DNA of 37,321 nt from an uncultured Oscillospiraceae bacterium (GTDB taxonomy: Bacteria; Bacillota; Clostridia; Oscillospirales; Acutalibacteraceae). The notes beneath the pieces were generated by a model that worked only from the letters and a program-made list of their open reading frames with translations, ran no database searches and was not told the DNA's origin. The position numbers and the translations under genes are program-made. The stretch's first letter is position 1, and each line of letters opens with the position of its first letter. The stretch is taken from positions 1-37,321 of the forward strand of contig UQLR01000020.1 in NCBI GenBank assembly GCA_900541975.1, written 5' to 3'. This document shows positions 1 through 34,940 of the stretch, in pieces.

Positions 1-1
1 A

Positions 2-1336
2 AAGGCGGTAAAAACAGCCAGCCGGTCTGTGAAAGGCGTAAAGCAGAGCGCCAAGGGAATCAAAACTGCCCAGCATTCAGCAAAGACGGCGCAGCAGGCA
101 GCGAAAGCGACACAGAAAGCAGCGCAGGCTACCGCAAAAGCGGCAAGGGCGGCGGCCCAAGCAGCCAAAACAGCAGCGAAAGCGGCAGTGACAGGGGCAA
201 AGGCAGCGGTGAAAGCGACCGCCACTGCCATCAAAGCAGCAGCGGCAGCGATAAAGGGATTGGTTGCCGCTATTGCAGCTGGGGGCTGGGTGGCTGTGGT
301 CATTATCCTGTTGATTTGTTTAATTGCCCTGATTGTCGGTTCCTGCTTCGGCCTGTTTTTTGGTTCGGATTCCACCGGAACCGGCACCAGCGTAACACAG
401 GCGGTGTCTACCCTCAATGGGGAATATCTGTCTCACATTCAGGAAATAGAGGATTCCAATCCCCATGACCGGCAGGAGATCACCTCCAACGACGGAGTGC
501 TCTCCATCAACTGGGAAGATGTTCTCGCTGTATTTTCCGCAAAGGTTACCGGCGCGAAGGATGGGGCGCAGGTGGCCTCGTTGGATGACGCCCAAGTTCA
601 GCAGCTGCGGGATATTATGTGGGAGATGAATGCGGTGTCTTCCAGCACCCGTACCGAAAGCCAAGAGGTGGAAGTCACCGAAGTGGATGAGGATGGCAAT
701 GAAACCACCCATACCGAAACGGTGACAGAAACCATTCTGGAAATTACCATCACCCACAAAACCCCGGAGGAAATGGCCCGGCAGTACAGTTTTAACCCAA
801 GGCAGAACGAATATCTCGCCTTAATGTCGGAGCCGGAGAACCAGAATCTGTGGGCGGAGCTGCTGGGTGGTTACACAAGCGGCGGAGGACAGATTGTAAA
901 TCCCAATACTGACTGGATAGGCACCAGCATCTTCCAATGGCCGCTGCCGCAGAGCTATACAATAACCTCGTGGTTCGGTTACCGGGAGGACCCTTTCACC
1001 GGAGAAATTGCCTATCACAGCGGAACCGACATCGCCGCACCGGGCGGCACGCCCATCCTTGCCGCAGCAGACGGAACCGTCACCATAGCCAACGCCATCG
1101 ATTCATGGGGCGGCGGGTATGGGTACCACATCAAAGTGAAGCACAACGATACCTATGACACCCTGTATGCCCACTGTTCCTCCATCTGCGTGACGGTTGG
1201 TCAGGAAGTGAAACAGGGCGAGGTCATCGGCTATGTCGGCACCACCGGCAATTCCACCGGAAATCACCTGCACTTCGAGGTCTGGCAGAATGGGGAACGC
1301 ACCGATGCCCTTGGATATTTTAAAGCGAATGATTGA
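2..1336 (+). CDS. CD1108-family conjugation protein with C-terminal M23 peptidase, 5' end cut by window
   Basis: The reading frame is open to the first base of the window, so the real start lies upstream; the GTG at 29 is only the first start-like codon visible. The N-terminal 80 residues are a Lys/Ala repeat region (KTAQ, KATQKAAQ) followed by one membrane segment (GGWVAVVIILLICLIALIVG), a layout typical of CD1108-like proteins of Tn1549-type conjugative elements. The last 130 residues form an M23/LytM metallopeptidase domain with all zinc ligands visible: HSGTD, then YAH and HLHFE. Family members sit in the mating-channel module and are thought to open peptidoglycan locally for DNA transfer, with the peptidase outside the membrane. 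This gene marks the sequence to its right as part of a conjugative element. Assignment is by motif and architecture recall. Confidence 0.88.
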   Translation, partial: KAVKTASRSVKGVKQSAKGIKTAQHSAKTAQQAAKATQKAAQATAKAARAAAQAAKTAAKAAVTGAKAAVKATATAIKAAAAAIKGLVAAIAAGGWVAVVIILLICLIALIVGSCFGLFFGSDSTGTGTSVTQAVSTLNGEYLSHIQEIEDSNPHDRQEITSNDGVLSINWEDVLAVFSAKVTGAKDGAQVASLDDAQVQQLRDIMWEMNAVSSSTRTESQEVEVTEVDEDGNETTHTETVTETILEITITHKTPEEMARQYSFNPRQNEYLALMSEPENQNLWAELLGGYTSGGGQIVNPNTDWIGTSIFQWPLPQSYTITSWFGYREDPFTGEIAYHSGTDIAAPGGTPILAAADGTVTIANAIDSWGGGYGYHIKVKHNDTYDTLYAHCSSICVTVGQEVKQGEVIGYVGTTGNSTGNHLHFEVWQNGERTDALGYFKAND

Positions 1337-1410
1337 GAAAATTTAAGTGCAGAAGTTTCTTGATAGGGGAATTTTCAGCAAAACTGAATGTAGTCTGAAC
1401 AGATAATTGA

Positions 1411-1450
1411 AAGAGGTAAGCTCACAGAGATTTCTGAGGGCTTATCTCTT
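1411..1450 (+). terminator. Hairpin downstream of the conjugation gene
   Basis: A long imperfect inverted repeat: AAGAGGTAAGC (1411-1421) pairs with GCTTATCTCTT (1440-1450) with one G-T wobble, and an inner CAGA/TCTG pair extends it. It lies 75 bp after the stop of the conjugation gene. There is no clear T tract behind it, so it may be a weak or bidirectional terminator or an RNA-processing structure. Confidence 0.45.
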
Positions 1451-1564
1451 GAAATAATGCGATCATTTTCGCCAATTTTTTGCAATCCACAGTATCATGT
1501 GCTTGCATTTACAACCTGTATTTGATATAATAAAAAATAAATCTGTTGTTTTTGGGATAAGGGG

Positions 1565-1594
1565 TTGACAAGATATGGCTCTCGAAAATATAAT
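1565..1594 (+). promoter_or_regulatory. Near-consensus sigma-A promoter reading into the CAGA repeat
   Basis: TTGACA at 1565-1570 and TATAAT at 1589-1594 match both consensus hexamers exactly, with an 18-bp spacer. The predicted start of transcription falls at about 1601, which is exactly where the CAGA tandem repeat begins, so the repeat would form the first 55 nt of the RNA and changes in copy number would not alter promoter spacing. Confidence 0.8.
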
Positions 1595-1600
1595 GTCTAT

Positions 1601-1655
<55 letters not shown>

Positions 1656-1694
1656 CGATAAGAGCCTGCTTTTATAAATATATTTTTGATTTGG

Positions 1695-1735
1695 AAAAGG
1701 CACAGAAATCCATAAGGGTTTCTGTGCCTTTTTTT
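1695..1735 (+). terminator. Strong intrinsic terminator between promoter and LytTR gene
   Basis: AAAAGGCACAGAAA (1695-1708) pairs perfectly with TTTCTGTGCCTTTT (1719-1732) over 14 bp with a 10-nt loop, and T residues continue to 1735. It is placed after the promoter at 1565 and 44 bp before the LytTR start codon, so it should end or attenuate the upstream transcript. Confidence 0.85.
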
Positions 1736-1778
1736 ACTTTTTCCCAATATATGGCTTCTGGGAAAGGAGGCCGTATTT

Positions 1779-2495
1779 ATGGTTGAAATTGCAGTATATC
1801 ATCACGACAGCCTGCAGCGGAAAAAAGTTTTACAGGATTTTATAAATAGCTTAAAACAGTCACAGGTCTATGGAAAGGTGTACTCCATTCAAAACTTACA
1901 GAAATTTTCAGAGAACCTTTTGAACGGGAAATATCAATTTGACATCATTTGTGTTGATACGGCTGAAAAAGAGCAGGCGCAAAAGCTCATGGAACACAAT
2001 CCTTCCAATCCGGAGTATATTCTTCTGGATACGCCTGCGGAGGAAGTATCAGGATATATGCGGTACAAGCCTGCGGCGTGGATACATTCAGATGGTGGCG
2101 GACAGAGAGAGGTAGCCAAAGCATTACAGTCCTGCCTATATCATCTGCACAGAAAACGTGAAGAATGCTTCTGTATCCGTACAAAAGCGAAAAGCGTGCG
2201 GATCCCGTACCGGCAAATCCTATATCTGGAAAGCCGTCTTCATCAGGTAATTGTTCATACGGTACGGCCGCAGGATGTGTGTGCCTTTGCCGCCGTTCTG
2301 GACGATGTGGAAAAAGCGCTTCCGGAAGAAACATTCTTCCGATGCCATCAAAGTTTCCTCGTAAATATCGACAGCATCTGCCAGCTTGACCGCACGGGAC
2401 GGAATCTGATATTGAGCAACGGAGAAACGCTCGGAATCAGCAAGCGGTATTATAAAGACGTTAACCGCATTTTTCCATGGGAAGCCACAATATAA
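1779..2495 (+). CDS. LytTR-family DNA-binding response regulator with degenerate receiver domain
   Basis: 238 aa; ATG start chosen because AAAGGAGG sits 8 nt upstream (1763-1770). Residues 1-120 look like a receiver domain that has drifted: a candidate phospho-acceptor Asp60 (FDIICVD) remains, but the usual N-terminal acidic pair reads HHD. Residues about 138-232 form a LytTR domain (RIPYRQILYLES, FFRCHQSFLVNID, ISKRYYKDV), the family that binds pairs of short direct repeats upstream of promoters. No histidine kinase is adjacent, so it is an orphan in this window. It is the first gene of a same-strand series ending with three dynamin-like GTPases and is the obvious candidate for their regulator. 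Two AAATNTGCAG repeats lie just after its stop codon. LytTR assignment is firm; the regulatory target is inferred from position. Confidence 0.88.
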   Translation: MVEIAVYHHDSLQRKKVLQDFINSLKQSQVYGKVYSIQNLQKFSENLLNGKYQFDIICVDTAEKEQAQKLMEHNPSNPEYILLDTPAEEVSGYMRYKPAAWIHSDGGGQREVAKALQSCLYHLHRKREECFCIRTKAKSVRIPYRQILYLESRLHQVIVHTVRPQDVCAFAAVLDDVEKALPEETFFRCHQSFLVNIDSICQLDRTGRNLILSNGETLGISKRYYKDVNRIFPWEATI

Positions 2496-2500
2496 AAGCT

Positions 2501-2584
2501 AAATTTGCAGGAAAAGACCAAATCTGCAGTTTGCTCGTCCAATACGGCAAAAGGGGTGGCGCCATATCCCTACAACGATATAAT
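2501..2584 (+). promoter_or_regulatory. Possible LytTR operator plus activator-dependent promoter
   Basis: AAATTTGCAG (2501-2510) and AAATCTGCAG (2520-2529) are ten-base direct repeats differing at one base, 19 bp start to start. A perfect TATAAT lies at 2579-2584 but no -35-like hexamer stands 17 bp before it. Paired direct repeats upstream of a promoter with a poor -35 is the usual arrangement for a LytTR activator. The spacing is slightly short of two helical turns, so this is tentative. Confidence 0.35.
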
Positions 2585-2624
2585 GGAGACAAGCTGAAGA
2601 TACTGAAAAAGGAGGAAGCACATC

Positions 2625-3620
2625 ATGAAGGACTTTATGGATTTTTCAGGGGCCTTAGACGGTGAAGATCCCACCATATCGCAGGGAGCAGACAGCTTTA
2701 CAACAGGGACGGATTACAACGGCGACGGCATTATGGACGGGGAAGCAGTATATGAAGACCTGAATGGAGACGGCGTGTTCGATACCATTACCGCATCGGT
2801 AGATACAAATAGCGACGGGATCGTGGATTTTGTTTCTGTATATCAGGACACGAACGGCGATGGATTTACAGATTATTCAGCCACCCTTATGGACGTTGAT
2901 ACAAACGGGGATGGAATCGCGGACAGTGTGTTTTTTGGCGAAGACGCCAACGGCGACACTGTTTTTGAGACAACACAGATCATGGACGCAGAGGAATGGG
3001 CCATGTTTACCGGAAGTCCGGACAGCGGATATGTCCCGGTAGACGAAGGCGGAGGCTTTGACGCGGGATATGAGCAGTTTAATCCCGCAGAAACCGATAT
3101 GTCCCAGGTAGTCGGAACTCCTGCTGCGGACGAGCAATGCTGGGATTATCAGGGAGAAAGCGGTCCCTGCGCAATATATGCGCAGGTGATGGCGTATGAA
3201 GGCATGACCGGCCAGGATATTGACCCTCAACAGATGATAGACATCGCCACGGAGCAGGGCTGGTACGATGATGGAACCTCTCTGGAGGATATGGACAAGA
3301 TTTTGAATTATCTTGGCGCTGAAACAGAAAAAGGGTTTGGCGGAGATATGCAGGATCTTCATGACTGTCTGGAAGATGGCGGCAGGATTGTTGTCGCAGT
3401 GGACGGAAATGAAATCTGGTATGGGAATACGGAAACCTATGCGCCGAACGATCCGAACCATGCGGTAGAGGTTATCGGGATCGATTATTCCGGTTCGGAG
3501 CCAATGGTTATTATCAATGATTCCGGCACGATGGACGGACACGCGATCACAGTACCGGCTTCTCAGTTTATGGACGCATGGGAAGACAGCGGCTGCTATT
3601 ATGTGGAAGCATACGCTTAA
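2625..3620 (+). CDS. Calcium-binding-repeat protein with C39-like cysteine peptidase domain
   Basis: 331 aa, very acidic; GGAGG at 2611-2615 supports the ATG. Residues about 30-115 carry six DxNxDGxxD-type loops (for example DYNGDGIMD, DLNGDGVFD, DTNSDGIVD), the calcium loop seen in dockerin and thrombospondin-3-type repeats; the sixth is degenerate (DANGDTVFE). Residues about 170-330 resemble the papain-like C39_2 fold: Gln176 before Cys182 (QGESGPCAIY), His279 (DPNHAVEVIGID) and Asn298/Asp299 (VIINDSG) are the expected catalytic set. No signal peptide or membrane segment is visible, which is odd for a calcium-loop protein since cytosolic calcium is low. It stands between a LytTR regulator and GTPase genes, so it may be a calcium-gated processing enzyme or an inactive binding module. 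Domains are recognised by motif; substrate is unknown. Confidence 0.75.
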   Translation: MKDFMDFSGALDGEDPTISQGADSFTTGTDYNGDGIMDGEAVYEDLNGDGVFDTITASVDTNSDGIVDFVSVYQDTNGDGFTDYSATLMDVDTNGDGIADSVFFGEDANGDTVFETTQIMDAEEWAMFTGSPDSGYVPVDEGGGFDAGYEQFNPAETDMSQVVGTPAADEQCWDYQGESGPCAIYAQVMAYEGMTGQDIDPQQMIDIATEQGWYDDGTSLEDMDKILNYLGAETEKGFGGDMQDLHDCLEDGGRIVVAVDGNEIWYGNTETYAPNDPNHAVEVIGIDYSGSEPMVIINDSGTMDGHAITVPASQFMDAWEDSGCYYVEAYA

Positions 3621-3670
3621 TCCGGAAAGGAAGCGGAATATCGAAAATAAAAGAGCAGGAGGATAAAACA

Positions 3671-4192
3671 ATGCTTTCAATACAGGAATTTTTAAAGAAA
3701 ATCAATACGGGCAGCGCCGTCCGTGAAAATATCCCGATGGGGTTGGGAATGGGATTTCCTGTGCTCAATATTACAGGGGACCGGCTTTTAGTTTCCGTCT
3801 TTTACTATCGTTCCGTGCTACGGCCAAATGACCAGACTTTGCTGATGCCCCCGGAATATAAGCTCACGGTTGATTATCCGAGTGGGAAACTGATTTCATT
3901 TGAAAATCTTAGATTGGATTACCGGTATGCAAAGGTGAATTTTGATAAGCCGTTAGGGATGTTCCGTCATGAAGCAATCAAGCATTTGGACCGGGATGGA
4001 TACAAAAAAGCAAAAGAGGATTTATATGAAGCTCTGAACCGCTTAATCGCGTTTTTAGGGGATGAGGGCGAGTTTACGAAAGAGGATGAGGAAAAGCTGT
4101 CGGGACTGTATACCATGATGACCGAACCGCCCCTGCATCCGTTCTATAAATCCCTTTCGCCGCAGTTCTTTGAACGGTATATCGAGCAATAA
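3671..4192 (+). CDS. Unknown 173-aa protein of the GTPase cluster
   Basis: The ATG at 3671 is preceded by AGGAGG (3657-3662); a longer frame from 3578 overlaps the previous gene and has no better site, so the shorter form is preferred. I do not recognise the family. The protein is soluble-looking: an N-terminal beta-rich half (LLVSVFYYRSVL, YKLTVDYPSGKLISFENL) and a C-terminal helical half with charged segments (DGYKKAKEDLYEALNRLIAFL). Its stop codon is embedded in the AAGGAGG that serves the first dynamin-like gene, 13 nt upstream of that start, so the two are very probably co-transcribed and translationally linked. This makes it a likely partner of the GTPases rather than a bystander. Confidence 0.7.
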   Translation: MLSIQEFLKKINTGSAVRENIPMGLGMGFPVLNITGDRLLVSVFYYRSVLRPNDQTLLMPPEYKLTVDYPSGKLISFENLRLDYRYAKVNFDKPLGMFRHEAIKHLDRDGYKKAKEDLYEALNRLIAFLGDEGEFTKEDEEKLSGLYTMMTEPPLHPFYKSLSPQFFERYIEQ

Positions 4193-4205
4193 GGAGGCGG
4201 GATTT

Positions 4206-6062
4206 GTGTTTCTCAAAAATAAAAATTTTTTTAACGACCCGGCTCCTCTGAAAGAGCGTACGGAGAAAACGGACGTTCAGGAGGAAAAAGAATCCTCTGG
4301 AAAAGAGCAGAAGGATTGGGAGGACGTAAATCTCAGCTTCTATGACGAAGCTTTTATGGCGCGGCTTCAGAAGCTGGAAGGGTATTGCCGTGAGGCCGGC
4401 AGGAAGGACTTACTGGAACAGCTGGCTTCCATCAGAGCGTACCTGGCTTCGGAAAAATTCAGCGTGGCGGTAGTCGGCGAATTTAACCGGGGAAAAAGCA
4501 CCCTGGTCAACCGGCTGATCGGTCGGGATATTATCCCGACCAGCGATATCCCGACAACCTCCCTTCCGATTTACGTGTCGGGCGGAGAGCAGGAAAGCAT
4601 CACTTTAAAAACAGTAAACGGGCAGAAACAGTACCCGGTCGCGGAAAAGAGCTGGGAAGCCATTGAAGAAGAGAAGAAAAAACTCAGGGAGACTAAAGGC
4701 GCGATCCTTTTAAAGCGGAACTGCAGTCTTTTGATGGAGAACGATCTGGAGTTGGTTGATACGCCCGGTGTAAATTCGCAAATCCGCGGGGATCTCAGCA
4801 TGGCGGAGCAGGCGCTGAGCGGATGCGACTGCGCCATCCTGCCAATGGCCGCTATAGCGGCGTTCAGCGAATCGGAAAAGCTGTTTCTTCAGGAGCGGAT
4901 CCTGATGAAAAAAGTCCCGCGCATTATGGTTGTTTTGACAAAGCTTGACCTTGTGGAAGAAAAACAGCGGTTAAGCGTTGTGGAATCTGTGCAGAGAAAA
5001 CTGGAAGCTATGGAAGCAGAGATCCCGCTTTACCTGTCCGCAGAGAACATGGCGGAGGGCTGGGAAGAGCGGTCCGGGACAGAGGCGATCCGGAAGCAGA
5101 TCCTTGCATGGCTGCATGAATCCTCCCATATCCAGCTGAAAAAAGAGAGGGCCAGCCAGGAAATAAAGGCGGTTTCCGCAGATCTGGCAACGGTTTACCA
5201 ATGCCAGCTGGATATTATCGCAGAAAAGGAAGAAAAGCGGAAGGAAACGGCGGAACAGAGCAAACAGAAGCTGCTCCGCAGCGCACAAATCCAGTGGGAC
5301 ATGCTTGAGAACGATATGCTGAAGCGATGCAATCAAAACTTTGAGTGGATCCGCAGCATGACGGAGGAACGCCAGCAGGACGTCATAGAAAAACTGACGC
5401 TGGAGCTTACCCATGTGGCTAATCCGAAAGACTGGTGGGAGAAGGATTATCCGTACCGGATGAAAATGGAAATGATCTCCTTGGGGAATATTCTGGAAAA
5501 CAACCTTCAGGGCTTTTATACCCGTGACGTCAACTGGCTGAACCATCTCCTTGAAGAGAAATACGGTTCCGCTATTCCGCCGCAGAACCAGCGGATTGCG
5601 GAGAAGGGCGTTTTCCGTGCGCCGATGGTGCAGCAAGCGGTTGAACTGGAGGATATGAAACGTTCCCGGCTGATTTCCCGCGTGGGGACGGGCGTCGCTA
5701 CAGTCGGAGGATACCTGGTAGGCGGGCTTATCGGGCTGTCGCCCATCGGGATGGCTGTAGGCATTGGCGGAGGTATTATTTCCGAGGTCTTTATGAATAA
5801 GCGCGTGGAATCGCAGAAACGGGAGCTTGCGAGGATTATCCGCGAAGAACTGCCGGGCGTTTTCAGCGGCAGTATTGAAACGGTTGAGAGGAATATCCGG
5901 GAGGTTTATATCTCAACGATCCGCACAATGAAGCGAACCTGTTCGGATTGGGTAAAGGTAAAATGCGACGCCATCGACGCGGCGCAAAAACAGGCGGATG
6001 ATCCGAAGCGTGAGGAAGCCATCCGCCAAAAGCTTGCCGAACTGAGAGGGATCGGCATATAG
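4206..6062 (+). CDS. Dynamin-like GTPase 1 of 3
   Basis: 618 aa. The GTG at 4206 is chosen over the upstream ATG at 4170 because AAGGAGG (4191-4197) fits only the GTG. After a charged 40-residue leader comes a dynamin-type G domain: P-loop G91-S98 (GEFNRGKS), switch threonines in PTTSLP, D185TPG and the T245KLD base-recognition motif. A long helical middle with heptad-like charge follows (about 320-480), then a glycine-rich hydrophobic hairpin at about 492-531 that would act as membrane paddle, then a helical tail. Bacterial dynamin-like proteins of this layout bind and deform lipid membranes using GTP. It is followed after 36 bp by a second, clearly different dynamin-like gene. GTP binding looks intact. 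The role in this cluster is inferred; membrane repair, envelope stress or phage defence are possible. Confidence 0.88.
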   Translation: MFLKNKNFFNDPAPLKERTEKTDVQEEKESSGKEQKDWEDVNLSFYDEAFMARLQKLEGYCREAGRKDLLEQLASIRAYLASEKFSVAVVGEFNRGKSTLVNRLIGRDIIPTSDIPTTSLPIYVSGGEQESITLKTVNGQKQYPVAEKSWEAIEEEKKKLRETKGAILLKRNCSLLMENDLELVDTPGVNSQIRGDLSMAEQALSGCDCAILPMAAIAAFSESEKLFLQERILMKKVPRIMVVLTKLDLVEEKQRLSVVESVQRKLEAMEAEIPLYLSAENMAEGWEERSGTEAIRKQILAWLHESSHIQLKKERASQEIKAVSADLATVYQCQLDIIAEKEEKRKETAEQSKQKLLRSAQIQWDMLENDMLKRCNQNFEWIRSMTEERQQDVIEKLTLELTHVANPKDWWEKDYPYRMKMEMISLGNILENNLQGFYTRDVNWLNHLLEEKYGSAIPPQNQRIAEKGVFRAPMVQQAVELEDMKRSRLISRVGTGVATVGGYLVGGLIGLSPIGMAVGIGGGIISEVFMNKRVESQKRELARIIREELPGVFSGSIETVERNIREVYISTIRTMKRTCSDWVKVKCDAIDAAQKQADDPKREEAIRQKLAELRGIGI

Positions 6063-6098
6063 CATCAGCAGGTGATATCGGAGTAGGAGGAAAATACA

Positions 6099-8117
6099 AT
6101 GACGAACGATCAGCTCAAAGAATATGCGGCAAGGCAGAAGCGTCTGACCGGCATCATCCAGGAAGCGTCCGGTCTGGTACAGAAATTGGATATGGAGCAC
6201 TGTGCGCAAGTATTGCAGCAGCTGCGGCAGAAGATTTCATCGGATACATTCAAGATCATGGTGATGGGAAATTTCAAAAACGGTAAGAGCACGTTTATCA
6301 ACGCGCTTCTTGGGCAGGAGATCCTGCCGGCCTATGCCGTGCCGACAACCGCGATTATCAATGAAATCAAATATGGCGAAAAGCCGAAAGCGGTCCTGCA
6401 TTTTCTGAACCCGCTGCCGGAAAAGATGTATGATGGGATTCCGGAAAAGGCGCTTACCCATATGCGGCGGTTCCAAATGAAGGACGTCCCGCCGATTGAG
6501 ATGCCTGTGGATGAAATCGAGGATTATGTGGTTATTCCGATGGGCATGGAACATAAAGAGGCGATTAAGCAAAGCCCCTTTGAAAAGGTGGAACTGTTCT
6601 GGCCGCTGGATCTGCTCAAGGACGGCGTGGAGATTGTGGATTCCCCGGGCCTGAATGAAAATCCGGTGCGCACCCAGGTAACCATGGAATACCTGAGCAA
6701 AGCGGACGCTATCATTTTTGTGTTCAGCGCTTTGGCGATGGGTTCTGCGGGAGAGATTGCATACATAGACGATACGCTGCGGAAAAACGGGTTTGGAGAG
6801 CAGAGCCTGTTCTGCGTGGTAAACCGGTTCGACCAGCTGACCAGCGAGCGGGAACAGCAGCGTCTGCGCAAATTCTCGGACAACCTTTTGGCGCCTTATA
6901 CCAAGCACGTATATTATACTTCAGCCTATAAGGGGCTTGTGGGTCAGCTTCAAAACAATCCGGCAATGCTGGATGAATCCAAAATCCCGGCGGTGGAAAC
7001 AGCTTTGGCGGATTATCTGGCCAATGAGCGCGGGAAGATCAAGCTGGCGACGCCGGCACGGGAACTGATCCGCGTTATTCGGCAGGACGCGCTGGAAACG
7101 ACAATTCCCCAGCGGCGAAACGCGCTGTCCACAGATTTGGATGTGCTGAAGCAGCGGTACAGCGAGGCGCAGCCGGAAATCGAAAAGCTCAGGCAGCAAA
7201 AGGATTTGATTACCAGCCGGACGGAAGCCTTTATTGCAAACCTGCTTCCGGATATCCGGCGGAGCGCTGTCAATTACTTCAATAACCTCCCGGGGCAAAT
7301 CCGCGTATGGGTTGAAGAATATGAACCGGAGACAAAGGTTTCGGCGCTTCATCCAAAGCGGGATGCGGAAGCGTTGTCGGACGAGCTTGTGAATTTTATA
7401 CAGAATAAAATAGACGGTGAAACCAGAGAATGGCTGTCCGGGCCGTTTACCAATCTGGTCAATGATAAAGTAGAATCCTTGAAGGATTCTCTGGAAGGCC
7501 GTTTGGAGGAATTCTTTGTTTCTCTGGATCAGGTCAAGGTGAGCGTAACGGGGTCTCACAATATCGATACAGAAGATATCCCGGTTTGGAAGCGCGTTGT
7601 AGCCGCCGGCGGCGGACTGCTGATCGGAGATATCGGCGTTGCAGCTCTGGGCGCTACGACAGGGCTTTCTTCAGAATTTGCGAAGGGCATTGCCTTACAG
7701 CTTGGCGCTTATATCGGTCTGGCAATACTGGGCTTCCTGAACCCGGTCACGATTATTGCTGTGATTGCGGCTTCCGTCATCAGGGGCGGGCTCAAGGTAT
7801 CCGAAAAGGCTGTGAAGAATGCCAAGGAACAGGTGGCGGCAACGTTCTGCGAAGAAATCAGCGGCAAAAGCATGCAGCTGGTCGATACCGTTGTCAGCGG
7901 GGCGACAGAGAATTTTGATAAAATCAAGGATATTATTTCCAACTCAATGGACGTGGAAATCGGAGAAATGCAGAAACAGTTGGAAGGCATTATCCGCGAT
8001 ATGGAACAAGGCAAAGAGGTTGTGGAACAGAAGTCAGCGCAGTTGTCTGAATATGAAAAGCAGCTGAAGGGAACTGCGGAGAATCTCGATACCTTTATTT
8101 TTGAACTGTTGAAATAG
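6099..8117 (+). CDS. Dynamin-like GTPase 2 of 3
   Basis: 672 aa; ATG with GGAGG 9-10 nt upstream. The G domain shows P-loop G57-S64 (GNFKNGKS), a VPTTAI switch segment, D181SPG in G3 and N242RFD in G4; N242RFD is the canonical NKxD form with Arg for Lys, unlike the TKxD of its two neighbours. Residues about 330-480 are helical and charged. A long two-segment hydrophobic stretch at about 500-566 (GLLIGDIGVAALGATTG, then GLAILGFLNPVTIIAVIAA) is a strong membrane-inserting paddle, longer than in GTPase 1. The C-terminal 90 residues are coiled-coil-like. Sequence differs enough from the flanking GTPases that recent duplication is unlikely; paired non-identical bacterial dynamins often work as hetero-oligomers, so a complex of the three is plausible. 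Confidence 0.88.
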   Translation: MTNDQLKEYAARQKRLTGIIQEASGLVQKLDMEHCAQVLQQLRQKISSDTFKIMVMGNFKNGKSTFINALLGQEILPAYAVPTTAIINEIKYGEKPKAVLHFLNPLPEKMYDGIPEKALTHMRRFQMKDVPPIEMPVDEIEDYVVIPMGMEHKEAIKQSPFEKVELFWPLDLLKDGVEIVDSPGLNENPVRTQVTMEYLSKADAIIFVFSALAMGSAGEIAYIDDTLRKNGFGEQSLFCVVNRFDQLTSEREQQRLRKFSDNLLAPYTKHVYYTSAYKGLVGQLQNNPAMLDESKIPAVETALADYLANERGKIKLATPARELIRVIRQDALETTIPQRRNALSTDLDVLKQRYSEAQPEIEKLRQQKDLITSRTEAFIANLLPDIRRSAVNYFNNLPGQIRVWVEEYEPETKVSALHPKRDAEALSDELVNFIQNKIDGETREWLSGPFTNLVNDKVESLKDSLEGRLEEFFVSLDQVKVSVTGSHNIDTEDIPVWKRVVAAGGGLLIGDIGVAALGATTGLSSEFAKGIALQLGAYIGLAILGFLNPVTIIAVIAASVIRGGLKVSEKAVKNAKEQVAATFCEEISGKSMQLVDTVVSGATENFDKIKDIISNSMDVEIGEMQKQLEGIIRDMEQGKEVVEQKSAQLSEYEKQLKGTAENLDTFIFELLK

Positions 8118-8325
8118 CAGTTTGGAGCGGTTGAAAACATCCGCTTCCTCCCAAGCGTTTTTTACTGAAGAATAGTTCCTATTCAAAGTGTTTTTCAGGA
8201 GTCGGGGAAAATGATTGTTTTGCACTGGCATATCTGGAATATATCGGGGGCTCCTGCCTTTGGAAGGAATTGACGGCTATAGAATCCGAGAGTGTCAGCG
8301 GAGCCTCAAATAGTGGAAATAATTG

Positions 8326-8424
8326 ATGAGAAGCTATCTCAGGAGAAAATTGAATCGGGTGATTACCAGTTTGAATGATACGCTTGAGAATATGCCGAAT
8401 CAGCAGGAGAGAAAACGAAAATGA
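8326..8424 (+). CDS. Possible 32-aa basic leader ORF coupled to GTPase 3
   Basis: A short frame starting MRSYLRRK and ending QERKRK; its TGA overlaps the ATG of the next gene in an ATGA arrangement typical of translational coupling. Strongly basic composition. The ribosome binding site is poor (AGTGGAAAT). It is the only frame that uses the otherwise empty 303-bp gap between GTPases 2 and 3, but it may be chance; codon evidence is too short to decide. Confidence 0.2.
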   Translation: MRSYLRRKLNRVITSLNDTLENMPNQQERKRK

Positions 8425-10388
8425 AAGCACGTATATGTACAACAGAGAGCACAACGCCTGTATCCCTTGATTTCAGGACACAGCAGATAATCCAGCTGGC
8501 GGATATTGACGGGCATATCCGGTTTATACAGGCCTTGATGGGAAAATATAGTTTCCCATCCGAACAAAAAGCACAGCTTCAAACGGAGTTGAAGAAGATC
8601 CAGGACCGTCAGAACGAAAAAGCGTTGAATATGGCGGTAATCGGCGAATTTTCTTCCGGAAAGAGCAGCTTTATCAATGCCCTTCTGCGGGAAAACCTGC
8701 TGGAAGCAGACGCGATACAGGGGACGACGGTAGCCTCTACCCTGATTGGCTACAGCCCGGAAAGAATGTTCTGCACCTATGGAAGGGGCGGAAAAGGCAA
8801 GCAGACGAGAAGCGTTGAAAACGCAGCGGCACTGGCGAAACTTCTTGCAGCATATACCTCCGGTAATCGGAAGGATGAAAATGCGCAGCACCTGGAGGTG
8901 GGATACCCATCTGATTTTTTGCAGCAGGGTATCCGCATTATCGATACCCCGGGAACCAATTCGCTGGAGCAGTGGCACGAGGACGTCACAAAAGAAGCAA
9001 TCCGGGAACAGGCGGACGCCTGTATTATCCTTACCAGCGCTGAAAAGCCGTTCCCGGAAAGCTTCTGCCGTTTTTTGGAGGATAACCTTGAAGACGTTTT
9101 GCAAACCTGTGTTTTTGTAGTGACAAAGATCGACTTGGTTCCGCCGAAGCAGCAGGCCAGACAGCTGGAGTATATCCGAAAAGTCCTGAAAGAGAAGCTG
9201 TCTGTTCACGATCCGTTGGTATTACCCTATTCCGCCCTGCCGGTCATAAATGGGACCGGAACAGAATATATTGAGGGAAATCGTGAAACAGAGGAAAGAA
9301 TCCTGAAATTTTTGCAGGAGCAGAGAATCCGGATCCAGCTGCAGCGGTGCATGGCCTTGTCAGAAAACGCAATGGGACGGCTGAAAGAAAGCATGGAGCA
9401 GATATCCTCGCAGCAGGAGCAGCGGCACCTTCAGCTTATGCAGGCCGTTACAACGGACCTGCAGGGCTTTGTCATGAGAAAAAAGTCGGAAATCAGCTTA
9501 TCCTATCAGGAAAACACAAACGAGAAATTAAAGGCGATTGGAGAAAACGTTGACGTCTGGATTCGGGATAAAAAGAGAGAAGTATATGAAGCGTTTCAAA
9601 AACCGGCAACGGAAAGCGGCATACGGGATTTTTTACAGACAAAGCTGAATCCTTTGCTGGAGGAAAAGAAATCGGAAATTTTGAAAAATGCCGGCATATC
9701 CGCAGAGAGCTCCTCGAAGTATTTGAGTGAGATACAGTCAATAGCGGAAGGGCATTGCAGACGCTTTGAAGCGGATTTTAAGAGAGAATACCGGCAGCTG
9801 GAACTGCTTGCGCATGATCTGGTGCAGGAGGTGGATAAAAGCGTCCGTCTGGATGATTCCTTGATGACAAATATACAGGCTAATATTGCCATCCGTCAAA
9901 AGGTTGAGGCCAACGTCAAACAGTCAAACCGTGGTTTTATGGGATATGCGGGAGCGGGAGCGGCAGCCGGGGCCGCGATCGGTTCAGTTGTCCCGATTAT
10001 TGGAACAACAGCGGGAGCTGTTATTGGCGCCGTTGCCGGCTTTATGCGGTTTAGCAAAAAATCAGACGATTCATCCAGAGGGACGGCTTTCCGCAATCAG
10101 GTAGCTGGTGATGTCAACGCGGTGGTAGAGCAGTATTTCAGAAGCTTGAAAGATAGTGTGCTGCAGTTTTTTTATCAAAATGCAGCAAATTGCTGGATGC
10201 AGGTCGAGCGTGTTATGGATCAGTATCTCACGCAGTATACTGGTATAGTTCATGAAATGAGAAAACGCGATCAGCATGCGCAGGAAGAGGCCGCATTAAA
10301 AATCCGGGCCATTCAGGGCGATATCAGCTTAACGCAGCAGCAGCTTGAACAAATAAAGTCAGTAAGATACAAAATCAGTCAGATGTAA
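8421..10388 (+). CDS. Dynamin-like GTPase 3 of 3
   Basis: 655 aa; ATG preceded by AGGAGAG. G domain motifs are complete: P-loop G75-S82 (GEFSSGKS), switch threonines in QGTTVAS, D175TPG and T235KID. A helical stalk covers about 320-500. A glycine/alanine-rich hydrophobic hairpin at about 505-545 (AGAGAAAGAAIGSVVPIIG) is the probable membrane paddle and resembles the hairpin of the small protein encoded just downstream. It is separated from GTPase 2 by 303 bp, the longest gap in the cluster, so it may have its own start of transcription, but no consensus promoter is visible there. Function as for GTPases 1 and 2: nucleotide-dependent membrane binding or remodelling at the inner face of the cytoplasmic membrane. 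Confidence 0.87.
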   Translation: MKARICTTESTTPVSLDFRTQQIIQLADIDGHIRFIQALMGKYSFPSEQKAQLQTELKKIQDRQNEKALNMAVIGEFSSGKSSFINALLRENLLEADAIQGTTVASTLIGYSPERMFCTYGRGGKGKQTRSVENAAALAKLLAAYTSGNRKDENAQHLEVGYPSDFLQQGIRIIDTPGTNSLEQWHEDVTKEAIREQADACIILTSAEKPFPESFCRFLEDNLEDVLQTCVFVVTKIDLVPPKQQARQLEYIRKVLKEKLSVHDPLVLPYSALPVINGTGTEYIEGNRETEERILKFLQEQRIRIQLQRCMALSENAMGRLKESMEQISSQQEQRHLQLMQAVTTDLQGFVMRKKSEISLSYQENTNEKLKAIGENVDVWIRDKKREVYEAFQKPATESGIRDFLQTKLNPLLEEKKSEILKNAGISAESSSKYLSEIQSIAEGHCRRFEADFKREYRQLELLAHDLVQEVDKSVRLDDSLMTNIQANIAIRQKVEANVKQSNRGFMGYAGAGAAAGAAIGSVVPIIGTTAGAVIGAVAGFMRFSKKSDDSSRGTAFRNQVAGDVNAVVEQYFRSLKDSVLQFFYQNAANCWMQVERVMDQYLTQYTGIVHEMRKRDQHAQEEAALKIRAIQGDISLTQQQLEQIKSVRYKISQM

Positions 10389-10407
10389 GTAAGAGAGGAG
10401 TAAAGCA

Positions 10408-10938
10408 GTGATGGATACAATCCGGGAATTTGATTCCGTATGGAAAAAGTTTATGGTGATGTGCCGGGCAAAGCTGATGGAAAAAAGCAAACAATGCGCA
10501 TTAAGCGGTGCTGCGGCGGAGATGTCGGTTCAAGATGCGGCCTCCATGTGGTTCGATCCATACAACGCATGCGGCCAGTGGCTGAAACAGCTGGAAAAGG
10601 AAGAACCGCAGACGGCTGAGAAAGTCAAAACGATTTTACAGGAAATCAAGCTGGAGGAAATCCCAGAGAAAAAAGGTTTCCCGGAACTTGGCGTTATCGG
10701 GATTGCGGCAGGAGGAGCGGCGGCCGGCGCCGGTGTCGGGGCGTGGATTCTCCACTTAGGGACATGGGGAACCCTCCTGTCAGCGGCAATTCCAGCGGTG
10801 GCTTTGTACCCGGCGATGAAAGGATATCAGAAAAGCGAAAGGGAAAAGGCGGAAAGAGAAGGAATTACAAAATATCTGGAACAGCTTTCCCTTGTCCGGG
10901 AGGAAATTGACGGGGTATTGAACTGTTCTGCCTGCTAA
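10408..10938 (+). CDS. Small membrane-hairpin protein following the dynamin genes
   Basis: 176 aa from GTG at 10408; an in-frame ATG immediately follows at 10411 and either may be used (GAGGAG at 10395-10400). It starts 19 bp after GTPase 3, so it is almost certainly in the same transcript. Residues 1-80 are helical and charged. Residues about 92-132 form a hydrophobic glycine/alanine-rich hairpin (GIAAGGAAAGAGVGAWIL, then LLSAAIPAVALYPAM), and the tail is basic and helical. No enzyme motif is visible and there is no GTPase domain. The hairpin resembles the paddle segment of GTPase 3, which suggests a membrane anchor or adaptor. I do not recognise a named family. Confidence 0.7.
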   Translation: MMDTIREFDSVWKKFMVMCRAKLMEKSKQCALSGAAAEMSVQDAASMWFDPYNACGQWLKQLEKEEPQTAEKVKTILQEIKLEEIPEKKGFPELGVIGIAAGGAAAGAGVGAWILHLGTWGTLLSAAIPAVALYPAMKGYQKSEREKAEREGITKYLEQLSLVREEIDGVLNCSAC

Positions 10939-10962
10939 ATTTATAACCCTGCATAAGACAAA

Positions 10963-11004
10963 AACGGTCTGGTCTGCCTTTTGAAAGCTGCGGACTGGGC
11001 CGTT
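10963..11004 (+). terminator. Hairpin closing the dynamin cluster
   Basis: 15-base arms at 10963-10977 and 10990-11004 pair over their whole length as RNA, with four of the pairs G-U wobbles. A T-rich stretch follows after a short A-rich spacer (ACCTTATTTTT). It probably ends the GTPase transcript; the spacing of the T tract makes it a weaker terminator. Confidence 0.55.
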
Positions 11005-11050
11005 CTTAAAACCTTATTTTTGAAGTCAGAGCGGAAAGAAAGGGAAAATT

Positions 11051-11386
11051 ATGATTGATGTTAAAATTTCTGTGAACAATGTTGATTATGAAGCCGCTTT
11101 GGATACACTGCTTCCAGTGCTGCTGGAGCATTTGTCAAAAAAATCTGAGAACGCTTTTTTGGTTTCCGTCTTGTCGAAGACCAAAGGTGTTTCGTCAATA
11201 GCGGCAAAAGCGGCTTTAAAAGCGCTTCCGCAGGATACGAGGGATGAGCTTGCCGTGGCGTGCTTAAACCATTATAAGGAGGATATTCAGCGTCTGCTTA
11301 CCGAAGCGTCGAAACAAAAGGGGATTGCGCTGCAAATTGAAGGGATTGATATCGCTGTGGCACAGAATTCTGAAGCCGGTCAATAA
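11051..11386 (+). CDS. Unknown 111-aa protein
   Basis: Starts at ATG 11051 with GGAAAGAAAGGG upstream. The sequence is mostly helical (LDTLLPVLLEHLSKKSENAFLV) with a basic centre and a beta-like C-terminus (ALQIEGIDIAV). No motif, signal peptide or membrane segment is seen. It lies after the hairpin that closes the GTPase cluster and before the HD hydrolase gene, on the same strand as both. I do not recognise the family. Confidence 0.55.
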   Translation: MIDVKISVNNVDYEAALDTLLPVLLEHLSKKSENAFLVSVLSKTKGVSSIAAKAALKALPQDTRDELAVACLNHYKEDIQRLLTEASKQKGIALQIEGIDIAVAQNSEAGQ

Positions 11387-11500
11387 CAGAGCGCCAAAAA
11401 AGCGGTTTTGAAGGTGAAAAATGCAGACAAGAGTTATTTTTGAGAATGATATGATAAAATGGCGATAGGTCGGTTAAGGCAATACAAAGGAGGATGTGAA

Positions 11501-12148
11501 ATGGAACGTACAGTTTATAATGCGGACAAAATGTATACATATATCCGCGGATATGCATCGGGGGTTGGTATGATCCAGACGCTTAAGGCACTTTCTTTTG
11601 CCAGGGAAAAGCATAATGGACAGAAACGTAAAAATGGCGATCCGTATATTGTGCATCCTCTTACTATGGCTTGTAATGCGTTGAGTATGGGAATTCGAGA
11701 TGACAATACCATAGCAACAATTCTTCTGCATGATGTTTGTGAAGATTGCGGTGTGGCTTTAGAAGAACTTCCGGTAAACGATATTGTCCGCAGGGGCGTT
11801 CAGCTAATGACTTTCGAAGTTTTGCCAGGAGAAACAAAAGATATTGCCAAGACCAGATATTATAATATGCTCATTCAGAGTAAGGAAGCTGTGATTACCA
11901 AGTTTATCGACCGGTGCCATAATGTTTCAAGTATGGCAGGTACTTTTTCTGTTGAAAAGCTCAAGTCTTATATAAAAGAGACAAGAACTTATGTACTCCC
12001 ACTGTTGAGACAAGCTAAGGATCATTATCCAGAGGAATCAGACAGGCTGTTTATGCTGAAATATCATATCACAAGTGTGGTTGATGCAATCGATTTGACA
12101 ATGCAGGCATACGAAAGCAGAAATGAAGATACTGAAACAATAGAATAA
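11501..12148 (+). CDS. Stand-alone SpoT/Mesh1-type HD-domain phosphohydrolase
   Basis: 215 aa. The ATG at 11501 is chosen because AAAGGAGG lies just upstream; a longer frame from 11459 has no site. The motifs of the (p)ppGpp hydrolase HD domain are all visible: H38NGQKRKNGDPYIVHP with His52, H77D78 followed by E81D82 (LLHDVCED) and K-FIDRCHN with Asp137. There is no synthetase (RelA) domain, TGS or ACT domain, so it resembles small alarmone hydrolases. Such proteins degrade (p)ppGpp or related alarmones and some act as antitoxins to toxic small alarmone synthetases. No synthetase is nearby in this window. Its base composition is more AT-rich than the GTPase cluster, suggesting a separate acquisition. 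Substrate is inferred from motif only. Confidence 0.78.
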   Translation: MERTVYNADKMYTYIRGYASGVGMIQTLKALSFAREKHNGQKRKNGDPYIVHPLTMACNALSMGIRDDNTIATILLHDVCEDCGVALEELPVNDIVRRGVQLMTFEVLPGETKDIAKTRYYNMLIQSKEAVITKFIDRCHNVSSMAGTFSVEKLKSYIKETRTYVLPLLRQAKDHYPEESDRLFMLKYHITSVVDAIDLTMQAYESRNEDTETIE

Positions 12149-12196
12149 AATAGCGCTTTTAGATGTATGTATGAATAGATATGCGGAGGATTAACT

Positions 12197-12568
12197 ATGT
12201 TTAACAAATCTATTGAACGCGATTTCGGTAAGGGCTTTCTCTTTTCAATGGAGACTTTAAACGTGACAGAGGAAGATCTGGAGAAATATCAAAGCGGCAC
12301 CCCCCTTGACGCGGACAAATTCAAAGACTGCAATGTGAGGTTTTTTACCGATGGTTATTATCCGAGGGTTGTTCGGCTCTCTAAGGATATTCCGACTTTT
12401 GATTCAGGAGATCGGGAATATGATTCATGGCATGACTTGTATTTAGTACAAGAGCAAAGCGGAAATATTCATGCTGTTTATTGCACCGGTGGTTATCGCA
12501 TTGCAACAATTCAAGGATACGCCAAAGTGCATCAATTACCAAACATATTAAAGAAATATTTTTTCTAA
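12197..12568 (+). CDS. Unknown 123-aa protein
   Basis: ATG start with GGAGG 9 nt upstream (gcggaggattaac). 123 aa, acidic, with a beta-rich body (DCNVRFFTDGYYPRVVRLS, HDLYLVQEQSGNIHAVYC). No signal peptide, membrane segment or catalytic motif stands out. It lies 48 bp after the HD hydrolase on the same strand and has the same AT-rich character, so the two may be a pair. Family not recognised. Confidence 0.6.
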   Translation: MFNKSIERDFGKGFLFSMETLNVTEEDLEKYQSGTPLDADKFKDCNVRFFTDGYYPRVVRLSKDIPTFDSGDREYDSWHDLYLVQEQSGNIHAVYCTGGYRIATIQGYAKVHQLPNILKKYFF

Positions 12569-12635
12569 TTAGTGAAACGGCGACAGCATACCTACAAATA
12601 AATATAATCCTAAATAAAAGAAGGAGTCCTTTGCT

Positions 12636-13278
12636 ATGAGAAACGATTTTGATGATTATTGCCCAGCCTCTGTTTCGAGAGGTGAATTGGAAGATATAGC
12701 TAGCATTACAGTTAGATTAATGCCATATTATGGCCGTGATATAGAGAAAATGCGGGATATGCCCAGAGAACAGGCAGTCGCTTATAGGCAGGAATTGAGA
12801 GAAAAAGGAATGTTCTATGATGCCGCTAAGGCAGTAGATATTTATTCGCACGGTAATTTTTGTGCATCTCATCTCAGTAATTTTTGTAAGACAGATTTTA
12901 TATTTGAGGGTATAAACATCAAGTCAATGGAAGGTTTTTTTGCAATCACTAAAAACTTCAAATCAAGAAGAACAGATTCATATATGCTCTCTTGCAGGCA
13001 AAGAAGCAAAAAAGGCAGGTCTGGCAGTTGCAGGCTTTGATGGCAAACATCTCTATTGGCAAGGAGAAACGATTGATCGTTTTTCCGAACAATATCATGT
13101 TCTTGTTCGCAGAGCGTATCATGCAAGATTTGAACAGGATAACCTCTTTAGAAAAGCGCTGATGGAAGCGAAAAACAAACAGCTTTTACATACAATTGGG
13201 AATAATGATCCTAAAGTAACGATATTGACCGTAGATGAATTTATTGGCTTTTTGCAAGAACTTCAGGAAAAATTGTGA
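12636..13278 (+). pseudogene. NADAR-like (YbiA/DUF1768-type) gene split by a +1 frameshift
   Basis: The first frame (from ATG 12636, with AAGGAG upstream) reads LSNFCKTDFIFEGINIKSMEGF and then loses sense; the second frame, entered at 12940, continues SLKTSNQEEQ, AGKEAKKAG, LYWQGETIDR and AYHARFEQDNLFRKAL to the stop at 13278. Together these follow the order of motifs of a NADAR-like family (SNF, SMEGF, GKEAKKAG, LYW, IDR, Y, FRKAL). The break falls in a run of seven T at 12935-12941; six T would give GF-LQSLKTSNQ and one intact gene of about 213 codons. NADAR proteins act on ADP-ribose derivatives; one subset is known from phage-defence settings. Here the gene is either dead, variable at the T run, or the result of a sequencing error. 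Confidence 0.7.
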
Positions 13279-22726: not shown

Positions 22727-22890
22727 CATAACTAATAAGAAAGGGAGATATGCTGGAATAATGGATGACATTGACAGCAGCGACGCCGACGGCGTAAGCA
22801 ATCTTTTTAGCTTTTATTTTATATGCAAATTTGTATGATATGGCATAACCTGCGCCCTTGAATAGGGCCTGGCGGGTTGTGCCTTTTTTT
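22727..22890 (+). promoter_or_regulatory. Structured leader plus terminator upstream of a P-type ATPase (riboswitch-like)
   Basis: The leader opens with AAAGGGAGAT (22740-22749), which can pair with ATCTTTTT at 22801-22808 using G-U pairs, enclosing a conserved-looking block with a tight hairpin ACGCC-GAC-GGCGT (22784-22796). An intrinsic terminator follows at 22842-22890 (GGCATAACC with GGTTGTGCC, an inner CCCTT/AGGG stem, then seven T), 64 bp before the ATPase start. Promoter, compact structured RNA, terminator and metal-ATPase gene is the usual layout of a transcriptional riboswitch. The yybP-ykoY Mn2+ class controls such ATPases but I do not see its hallmark GGGGAGUAGC loop, so the class is unassigned. 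Confidence 0.55.
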
Positions 22891-22954
22891 ACTGATTTTC
22901 GCCTTTGGGCGGTCAGAATATATGTATTTGAAGAAAGGAGTGGTCTGTCCAATT

Positions 22955-27584: not shown

Positions 27585-27669
27585 GCGAGTGTGCTGGAAC
27601 TGGCAGACAGGCACGTTTGAGGGGCGTGTGTTTCATGACGTACGGGTTCAAGTCCCGTCACTCGCACCA
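27585..27669 (+). tRNA. tRNA-Leu, anticodon GAG
   Basis: Acceptor stem GCGAGTG (27585-27591) pairs with CACTCGC (27659-27665), discriminator A, and CCA encoded (27667-27669). Anticodon arm CACGT-TTGAGGG-GCGTG gives anticodon GAG; a long variable arm and GGTTCAAGTCC T-arm are present, as expected of a class II leucine tRNA of 85 nt. It reads CUC/CUU leucine codons. Confidence 0.95.
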
Positions 27670-30260: not shown

Positions 30261-31011
30261 TGGGTTTTCTCCTGATCGTTACAATAAAACCATCGATATT
30301 ATTACCGGAAATTTGATAGGCGAATTGTTCCGGTATGAGTATCGTTGTTTTCTCTGTGAAAACCGGGACATAATACACCTCAATTGCAGTGTTCTTTTTT
30401 GACGGGTACAGAAACCGATTACTTTCTCGATAGATCTTGATAAAATGGATGTATTCTTCGAGCGTAAGGCGGTGTTCTGTCATGATTTTTGAATGAGGAT
30501 ATCCCACATAGCGAAAATGCCACGGCTCATATGCAATTTTGGTCAACGCTTCTTTTCCTTTTGGATAACGTTCCACAAAGCCAAAATGGGGCGCTGATTT
30601 TCGGAAATCGCCGCAAATTCCTTTATATGGGAAGTAAGGGCGGATAAAGTCGATATTTTTCTGATTCAGTCCCAGGTCGATAGCAAGTCCGGTTTCATGT
30701 TCGCTATGGCCGGGCGTAGCAACAAACTGTTTTGTAAACGCCTCCCCGTTGTCTCTAAGAGAATTTTGATAAATGGCAGTCTGCTCTTTTATGGAGCGGT
30801 AGCCGCTTACAGGAACAATTGCGTTGCCCGCCATAATATTAGATAAAAGCAGTTGTAAGGCGCTGGCGGCTTCGCTTTGCAGAAGAATATGAGGGAAATT
30901 TGGTTTTATAGCTATGAAATCCCCATTTTCCATACATCTGACAGGGTATTGTGCGTTTACAAGCAACAGATTTCCACAATATACCTTTTCCTTTTCAAGC
31001 GTTATTTTCAT
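30247..31011 (-). CDS. vanXY: VanXY: D,D-dipeptidase/D,D-carboxypeptidase
   Basis: 254 aa, the same length as VanXYG. Zinc peptidase of the VanX/VanY superfamily: SGYRSIKEQ, the zinc-binding SEHETGLAIDLG and the catalytic EPWHFRYVG. It removes D-Ala-D-Ala dipeptide and terminal D-Ala from precursors, so that cell wall is built only from D-Ala-D-Ser. Its ATG overlaps the stop of vanG by 4 bp (ATGA). No signal peptide, so it acts in the cytoplasm. Confidence 0.95.
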   Translation of the reverse strand: MKITLEKEKVYCGNLLLVNAQYPVRCMENGDFIAIKPNFPHILLQSEAASALQLLLSNIMAGNAIVPVSGYRSIKEQTAIYQNSLRDNGEAFTKQFVATPGHSEHETGLAIDLGLNQKNIDFIRPYFPYKGICGDFRKSAPHFGFVERYPKGKEALTKIAYEPWHFRYVGYPHSKIMTEHRLTLEEYIHFIKIYRESNRFLYPSKKNTAIEVYYVPVFTEKTTILIPEQFAYQISGNNIDGFIVTIRRKPNEQV

Positions 31012-34939: not shown

Positions 34940-34940
34940 C

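Follow-up and report, generated by a model that had tools for sequence, protein, structure and literature searches.

In a stretch of 37,321 nucleotides from an uncultured Oscillospiraceae bacterium (GenBank assembly GCA_900541975.1, positions 1 to 37,321 of contig UQLR01000020.1), hereafter the window, seven genes on the + strand form a cassette encoding a LytTR regulator, a C39-like cysteine protease, a protein of 173 amino acids (u173), three dynamin-like GTPases and a small hydrophobic protein, in the order described in an earlier reading of the DNA without database searches (the sequence-only reading). We propose that this cassette moves horizontally, is phase-variable and serves as a membrane-response system, its cytosolic and possibly calcium-gated protease controlling a hetero-complex of the dynamins, and put the probability of this at about 0.45. 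The genes recur linked in other genomes, the dynamins fall into clades specific to their position, the protease keeps its catalytic residues, and a leader with a repeat inside an open reading frame (ORF) and a terminator precedes the regulator.

Recurrence of the cassette and clades of its dynamins

A seed search with the C39-like protein gave 169 homologs, of which 120 were listed and 30 were aligned into a profile. On genome contigs this profile matched 173 stretches, 114 of them encoding relatives, and the best 80 are the loci L001 to L080. Profiles of the window genes and of recurring neighbours were run on the stop-to-stop frames of at least 60 amino acids in these best 80 loci, of which 72 have at least 2.5 kb and 63 at least 7.5 kb of sequence downstream of C39.

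Among the 72 loci, u173 adjoins C39 in 52, a dynamin is found on either side of C39 in 61, and a dynamin or an Hsp70-like gene in 67. Two of the five remaining loci (L046 and L060) have a HerA-type ATPase. Downstream of C39, 24 of the 63 loci have at least three dynamins, 19 have two, 7 have one and 13 have none. Upstream of C39, a LytTR gene is present in 12 out of 66 other loci with room for it, and a sigma-r4-like protein in 5 out of 66.

Three layouts recur. The first, that of the window, is C39, u173 and three dynamins. The second consists of C39, often u173, and two dynamins with GrpE/Hsp70, and the third of C39, u173 and a HerA-type ATPase, mostly with a divergent Hsp70-like gene. By a script rule, 27 of the 81 loci (window included) have at least three dynamins and match neither Hsp70 nor GrpE. 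Another 30 combine dynamins with Hsp70 or GrpE, a few of them carrying three dynamins or a HerA gene. A HerA-type ATPase without any dynamin is present in 9, a further 9 have one or two dynamins, and the remaining 6 include several that are cut by contig ends. The labels GrpE, DUF87/HerA and LRR-kinase are backed by Pfam for one representative each. Out of 12 Hsp70-labelled frames, 8 reach the Pfam HSP70 cut-off, 3 stay below it and the one of L039 matches nothing, which is why we call the Hsp70 of the HerA loci divergent. An Hsp70-like gene is present in 7 of the 9 HerA loci, and the other two are cut close to C39. The Hsp70/GrpE and HerA variants, as well as the switch-like leader described below, go beyond the sequence-only reading. 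In three loci of tubeworm endosymbionts (L050, L051 and L054) the cassette has two C39 genes, and after it comes a protein of about 1236 amino acids, which has no Pfam match in L050; an Hsp70 gene precedes the cassette in L050 and L051 and is fused to a beta-helix in L050.

All three dynamins of the window pass the Pfam Dynamin_N cut-off. Each has a P-loop, a DxPG and a G4 motif and a hydrophobic paddle (Kyte-Doolittle maxima over 19 residues of 1.73, 2.31 and 1.88), as had been noticed from the sequence, and they thus belong to the dynamin superfamily. In a tree of 150 dynamin sequences the first (n=33, support 1.0), second (n=30, 0.998) and third (n=26, 0.84) dynamins form clades by position, and these span Clostridia, Coriobacteriia and Bacteroidales. 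The exceptions are L062, whose three dynamins stand in another order, the second dynamin of L031, which falls into the third clade, and members of L004 and L024, which lie outside. The dynamins of two-dynamin loci form other clades, and the deep nodes are poorly supported (0.10 and 0.19).

The positions also differ in their motifs. Among the three-dynamin-type loci listed, the first position has GEF(S/N)RGKS in 19/29 and TKLD in 21/29, the second G(T/N)FKNGKS in 24/29, DSPG in 28/29 and NRFD in 20/29, and the third GEFS(T/S)GKS in 19/24 and TK(I/L)D in 15/24. The G4 difference of NRFD against TKxD, pointed out for the window before, is therefore real and a trait of subfamilies. Dynamin 2 matches BDLP1 across residues 29-642; dynamins 1 and 3 match IniA, BDLP1 and 5owv, which we take to be the Campylobacter dynamin pair, chiefly in the GTPase part. 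These matches bear out the supposed relation to membrane-acting bacterial dynamins. An extra N-terminal dynamin-like stretch is joined to the third dynamin in L002 (7070-10150), L003, L027 and L038 (frames of 902-1060 amino acids). This stretch has no P-loop match in L002 and L003, and the fusion is reminiscent of the double-headed DynA.

Across 24 loci, the distances within C39, u173 and each of the three dynamins are correlated with one another (r between 0.72 and 0.88), and for each of the ten pairs 0 out of 999 permutations gave a value as high. Furthermore, 25 of the 29 dynamin matches above 50 bits in 12 cassette-bearing genomes are on the contig of the cassette. The same gene order recurs across phyla, so that it is not a product of chance, and together with the position-specific clades and the correlated distances this speaks for the dedicated module that the sequence-only reading had proposed, with the search across genomes that it had suggested.

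Protease, u173 and leader

The catalytic residues C182, H279 and D299 of the protease are kept in 49/49 aligned sequences and Q176 in 47/49. Its predicted structure is papain-like, and with the oxyanion glutamine, cysteine, histidine and aspartate placed within a papain fold the protein can be assigned to the papain-like/C39-type peptidases. Fold matches include the C39 domains of ComA and PCAT1, staphopain and a C39-like protein of B. anthracis. Some homologs are labelled PF13529. The window protease itself, u173 and the hydrophobic protein of 176 amino acids matched no Pfam, PADLOC or NCBIfam model at 0.01, and these three family-less genes lie in the position and orientation described earlier. 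The calcium loops described for the protease are found as five DxNxDGxxD motifs, and their number ranges from 0 to 60 among relatives; the 60 are in a C39-like protein of 1267 amino acids in L031 (7451-11251). By hydropathy the window protease has no membrane segment and would be cytosolic.

LytTR and C39 co-occur in bacteriocin loci, and the cassette might accordingly be a locus for peptide maturation, with LytTR as an AgrA-like regulator and C39 as a double-glycine leader peptidase. Although the fold search does return ComA and PCAT1, we consider this very improbable: no ABC transporter is among the cassette genes, the protease lacks a membrane segment, and a crude scan of window positions 1-13000 revealed no small ORF encoding a double-glycine leader. 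Dynamins, Hsp70 and GrpE are not known as parts of bacteriocin loci. As an identity for the protease, a double-glycine leader-peptidase exporter is disfavoured for the same lack of a transporter and a membrane segment.

The structure model of u173 is confident (pLDDT 95), has no significant match in the PDB and gave one unexplained fold match, to a protein of a viral contig. By this model u173 is possibly a partner with a new fold. In the profile scan of the 80 loci, the Akkermansia loci and many of the actinobacterial ones gave no u173 match, so that the protein is not universal. There is a fair chance that the protease and u173 are a core that defines its own kind of system.

The leader (Table 1) was overlooked in the sequence-only reading. 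Its anatomy is that of the pil1 type: a repeat inside a leader ORF ahead of a terminator, with a distance from stop codon to hairpin that depends on the phase. A TTGnnT-17-TA(T/A)AAT promoter-like site is found in 4/4 leaders compared (window, L001, L006 and L002), and similar terminator hairpins are found in the three relatives. The layout is the same in L001 and L006, where the repeat unit is TACA (11 and 14 copies), and in L002, where we read the repeats as decayed. Tetranucleotide arrays of at least four perfect copies occur three times in the 1,388,539 bases of the window and L001-L080, each time in this leader. In the window, the present phase stops 33 nt before the terminator, one of the other two phases ends 17 nt before the hairpin and one reads on as far as the start of LytTR. 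For L001 and L006, a run through the hairpin is seen in two of the three phases, and the third ends 31 or 32 nt before it; the present leader ORF runs through in L001, L006 and L002.

In S. gallolyticus (PMC3894217), isolates whose leader stops 28 nt or more ahead of the terminator are mixtures in which low cells predominate; where the leader ends immediately upstream of the terminator or reads through it, high cells make up a large share. By this rule the window copy would be in a mainly-low state, since its leader stops 33 nt ahead. It is unlikely that the repeat and terminator instead yield a small RNA or act as a simple attenuator that does not vary in phase. The perfect P2 promoter points into the repeat and would give a short repeat-plus-terminator RNA, but P1, a start codon, the terminator and an ORF end at or close to the start of LytTR are retained despite the change of the repeat from CAGA to TACA, and pil1 is a proven precedent. 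By its sequence and by analogy with pil1, the leader may thus act as a phase-variable switch.

Spread, surroundings and proposed mechanism

Judged by record titles, the loci belong to Bacillota, Actinomycetota, Bacteroidota, Verrucomicrobiota and Pseudomonadota, with Cyanobacteriota added through a plasmid; many loci are metagenome bins, whose titles are possibly wrong. Searches with the u173 profile, which was derived from the C39-seeded loci, gave 5 matches in 348 genomes of the family of Bacterium C-53, presumably Lachnospiraceae. These were Bacterium C-53 itself and four distant ones, of which 4/4 have C39 and LytTR matches alongside (weakest C39 match 7e-6). In the order of Flavonifractor sp. 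An112 there were 2 in 345, An112 itself and a weak match with an internal stop. C39 searches among relatives were positive in 2/195, 4/198 and 5/198 genomes (centres included; some genomes shared). With so few positives among the genomes searched, the cassette is rare and patchy.

Partial copies with 90-92% DNA identity to the window are found in a Lachnospiraceae bin (L001) and a Clostridia bin (L006). Their similarity to the window starts at the repeat, and the genes upstream belong to Pfam families that differ among the three. In the window, an M23 peptidase gene (Pfam) lies upstream of the cassette, and large serine recombinases, a DinG-like helicase and a sigma-r4 protein lie downstream, which is in keeping with an integrative element. 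The plasmid of Anabaena has, in one direction, Hsp70, four hypothetical genes, C39, u173 and two dynamins. Besides this plasmid, 26 plasmid records of Rhodococcus or Prescottella carry a C39 match, which makes 27 in all; on one Rhodococcus plasmid examined, dynamins, GrpE and Hsp70 lie at least 5 kb from C39, with other genes between. The sequence-only reading had placed the cassette as cargo of an integrative and conjugative element, and the 90-92% identical partial copies in different neighbourhoods, the contig ends inside the cassette and its absence from most genomes searched agree with mobile cargo.

The cassette could also serve its carrier, for example in membrane handling or in protecting donor or recipient during conjugation. 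Besides the carrier of the window, which resembles an integrative and conjugative element, the Anabaena plasmid and an actin-like (ALP_N/MreB-like) gene near L001 would fit this. However, chromosome records also contain the core, for instance that of Streptomyces sp. GQFP (L056), and the upstream families change from copy to copy, so that we regard service to the element as improbable.

Another reading is an anti-phage system, in which the protease would sense a phage product and cleave a partner and the dynamins would arrest, seal or break the membrane as in Eleos or DynA. The patchy occurrence of the cassette would fit this, and phase variation is common in defence genes. All three dynamins match the PADLOC LeoA/LeoBC models (best 1e-12 to 1e-23), which is probably general homology, and DynA is reported to delay phage lysis. 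On the other hand, the best NCBIfam LeoA score is 33.9 bits against a cut-off of 325, and no C39 or u173 relative was found in phage records or viral contigs at the search sensitivity used. Around the cassette (ten proteins) no complete PADLOC system was found, the matches being LeoA, LeoB and LeoBC for the dynamins and a weak LeoBC match for the M23 protein. Among 142 neighbour proteins of 54 loci, PADLOC recognised 12 families with 1 to 3 proteins each, counts that come without a random-genome control, and mad2, mad3 and mad8 with one protein each are among them. There is thus little sign of defence in these neighbours, among which the sequence-only reading had proposed to look for known defence systems, and we consider an anti-phage role rather unlikely.

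In the membrane-response system that we favour, a promoter would drive the short repeat-bearing leader ORF, with a strong terminator ahead of LytTR. With a repeat number in the run-through phase, ribosomes would hold open the terminator and the hairpin at the LytTR ribosome-binding site, and the operon would be on; in other phases it would be mostly off, giving a population of on and off cells. At the cell membrane, on its inner face, dynamins 1-3 would assemble with the small hydrophobic protein into a hetero-complex that uses GTP to tether, seal or remodel the membrane. The calcium-loop array would be empty at resting cytosolic calcium and fill on membrane breach, and the calcium-loaded protease would act on u173 or a dynamin, releasing the complex. 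In sister systems, Hsp70/GrpE would join the dynamins, or a HerA-type ATPase would replace them.

The steps of this mechanism differ in strength. A membrane role of the system is likely, as the dynamins are likely to be at the membrane by family membership. We infer their hetero-assembly from the position-specific clades and the known pairing of bacterial dynamins; membrane action, phase variation and the cytosolic location of the protease are likewise inferred. The protease gene preceding the dynamins suggests a proteolytic trigger, and if the calcium-loop array lies in the cytosol, it may serve to sense calcium that enters at a breach. The calcium trigger and the cleavage target are speculative, with calcium sensing the weakest step.

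Several observations weigh against the proposal. The correlated distances can be explained by co-inheritance alone, and the contigs of L001 and L006 end inside the cassette, within dynamin 1 and after C39. Dynamin 3 is preceded by a gap of 303 bp with a terminator-like hairpin, which makes a single shared transcript uncertain at this point; the tight spacing from which shared expression had been deduced (13, 36 and 19 bp) is correct, and this gap had been overlooked. The cytosolic location is taken from hydropathy with starts chosen by script, and in 3/89 frames a hydrophobic stretch exceeds 1.5. Calcium binding is suggested by the DxNxDGxxD motifs, which many relatives, mostly of two-dynamin loci, lack, so that calcium would not be essential to the core. 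The repeat is present in two relatives, apparently decayed in one and found in none of the other LytTR-bearing leaders examined. Moreover, transcripts from the perfect P2 would begin downstream of the leader start codon, and the openness of the segment after the repeat is ordinary against shuffles in the window (0.34; 0.03 each for L001 and L006).

The features of the window are collected in Table 1. For dynamin 1 we chose the GTG start after a GGAGG; the TTG of the ORF caller lies further upstream, at 4170. Directly after the cassette are genes for a protein of 111 amino acids and an HD-domain (RelA/SpoT-like) protein. Relatives of one or the other are near the cassette in L002, L008, L019, L025 and L027, and they may therefore be occasional members. 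Beyond the serine recombinases lies a P-type cation ATPase, by eye of the calcium-pump type. A tRNA-Leu gene near the right part of the window is a possible integration site, and a run of genes there resembles, by eye only, a vanG-type glycopeptide-resistance cluster, with candidate labels of racemase/acyltransferase, DD-peptidase, D-Ala ligase-like, VanW-like, sensor kinase and response regulator.

Table 1. Positions of the cassette, its leader and other features in the window
Feature	Position	Strand	Remarks
Leader between M23 gene and LytTR	1503-1778		
Promoter-like site P1, TTGCAT-17-TATAAT	1503-1531	+	Consensus match only
Sigma-70-like site P2	1565-1594	+	Perfect 12/12 match; overlaps leader start region; less well kept in relatives
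Leader ORF, present phase	1575-1661	+	ATG to stop, through repeat
Tandem repeat (CAGA)13.8	1601-1655	+	Perfect
Predicted intrinsic terminator before LytTR	1693-1734	+	19-pair stem; -28.1 kcal/mol, z -7.9
Second predicted hairpin, enclosing LytTR GGAGG	1749-1776	+	-16.3 kcal/mol, z -3.6; 1/200 shuffles as good; window only
LytTR regulator	1779-2495	+	Pfam LytTR 1.1e-21; no Pfam receiver match in N-terminal half
C39-like cysteine protease	2625-3620	+	N-terminal calcium-loop array; no clear export signal
u173	3671-4192	+	Conserved; no family match
Dynamin 1	4206-6062	+	Dynamin_N 8.6e-28
Dynamin 2	6099-8117	+	G4 NRFD; Dynamin_N 1.9e-26; bacterial dynamin helical domain 3e-16
Terminator-like hairpin between dynamins 2 and 3	8142-8157	+	Consensus match only
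Dynamin 3	8421-10388	+	Dynamin_N 5.2e-23
Glycine-rich hydrophobic-hairpin protein, 176 amino acids	10408-10938	+	No family; homolog in 16/72 loci
111-amino-acid and HD-domain proteins	11051-12148	+	
P-type cation ATPase	22877-25609	+	Pfam E1-E2_ATPase, Cation_ATPase N and C
tRNA-Leu (gag)	27585-27669		
vanG-like gene run	28125-34990	-	Candidate labels

Comparison with known systems

Calpain acts in eukaryotic membrane repair, and proteases act on OPA1. If the proposal is true, the cassette would be a transferable bacterial membrane-emergency kit that likewise pairs proteolysis with dynamins and whose use is hedged by a repeat-length switch, and phase variation of the pil1 type would apply not just to surface pili but also to an internal membrane system carried by a mobile element. 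A bolder version, which we consider doubtful, is an undescribed bacterial machine over six phyla, a phase-variable counterpart of calpain repair with a cytosolic, calcium-gated papain-like protease and u173, of possibly new fold, as sensor core and exchangeable effectors (a dynamin trio, a dynamin pair with Hsp70/GrpE, or a HerA-type ATPase with a divergent Hsp70). In either case u173 is a marker for finding the system, and a core with swapped effectors makes it testable what triggers bacterial dynamins. Literature searches on the cassette found no description of it.

The leader shares the order of promoter, repeat-bearing leader ORF, premature terminator and operon with the pil1 attenuator of Streptococcus gallolyticus (Danne et al. 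2014, PMC3894217). The pil1 attenuator uses a 5-base repeat and controls pili; the repeat of the window has 4 bases and would control a regulator and membrane machinery.

The cassette protease has the fold and catalytic residues of C39/papain-like peptidases and differs from them in having no transporter or clear export signal and an N-terminal array of 0-60 calcium-loop motifs across relatives.

Another example of GTPase genes with exchangeable Hsp70, GrpE, kinases and peptidases are the DO-GTPase/GAP1 conflict systems (Kaur et al. 2020, PMC7159879), which occur in firmicutes and actinobacteria among others. They use a separate TRAFAC GTPase family with GAP1, and the text mentions neither "dynamin" nor "C39". 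No DO-GTPase or GAP1 family is among the Pfam matches of the cassette, the presence of such models in the library being unchecked.

Eleos/LeoABC and Bacillus DynA are likewise dynamins linked to membrane or phage protection, and differ from the cassette in gene content. Identity with LeoA was rejected on the score given above, and identity with DynA on a best NCBIfam score of 62.1 bits against a cut-off of 1600 and on the presence of three separate genes rather than one fused double dynamin.

Dynamin-like GTPases side by side in one operon are also found in Campylobacter jejuni (Cj-DLP1/DLP2, a membrane-tethering hetero-tetramer; PMC6104087) and for BDLP1 of Nostoc; the cassette differs in its three position-specific dynamins and its fixed partners, the C39 protease and u173. 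Among the literature found, the systems nearest to the cassette are the paired bacterial dynamins, Eleos, DynA and the conflict systems that Kaur et al. describe around another GTPase family.

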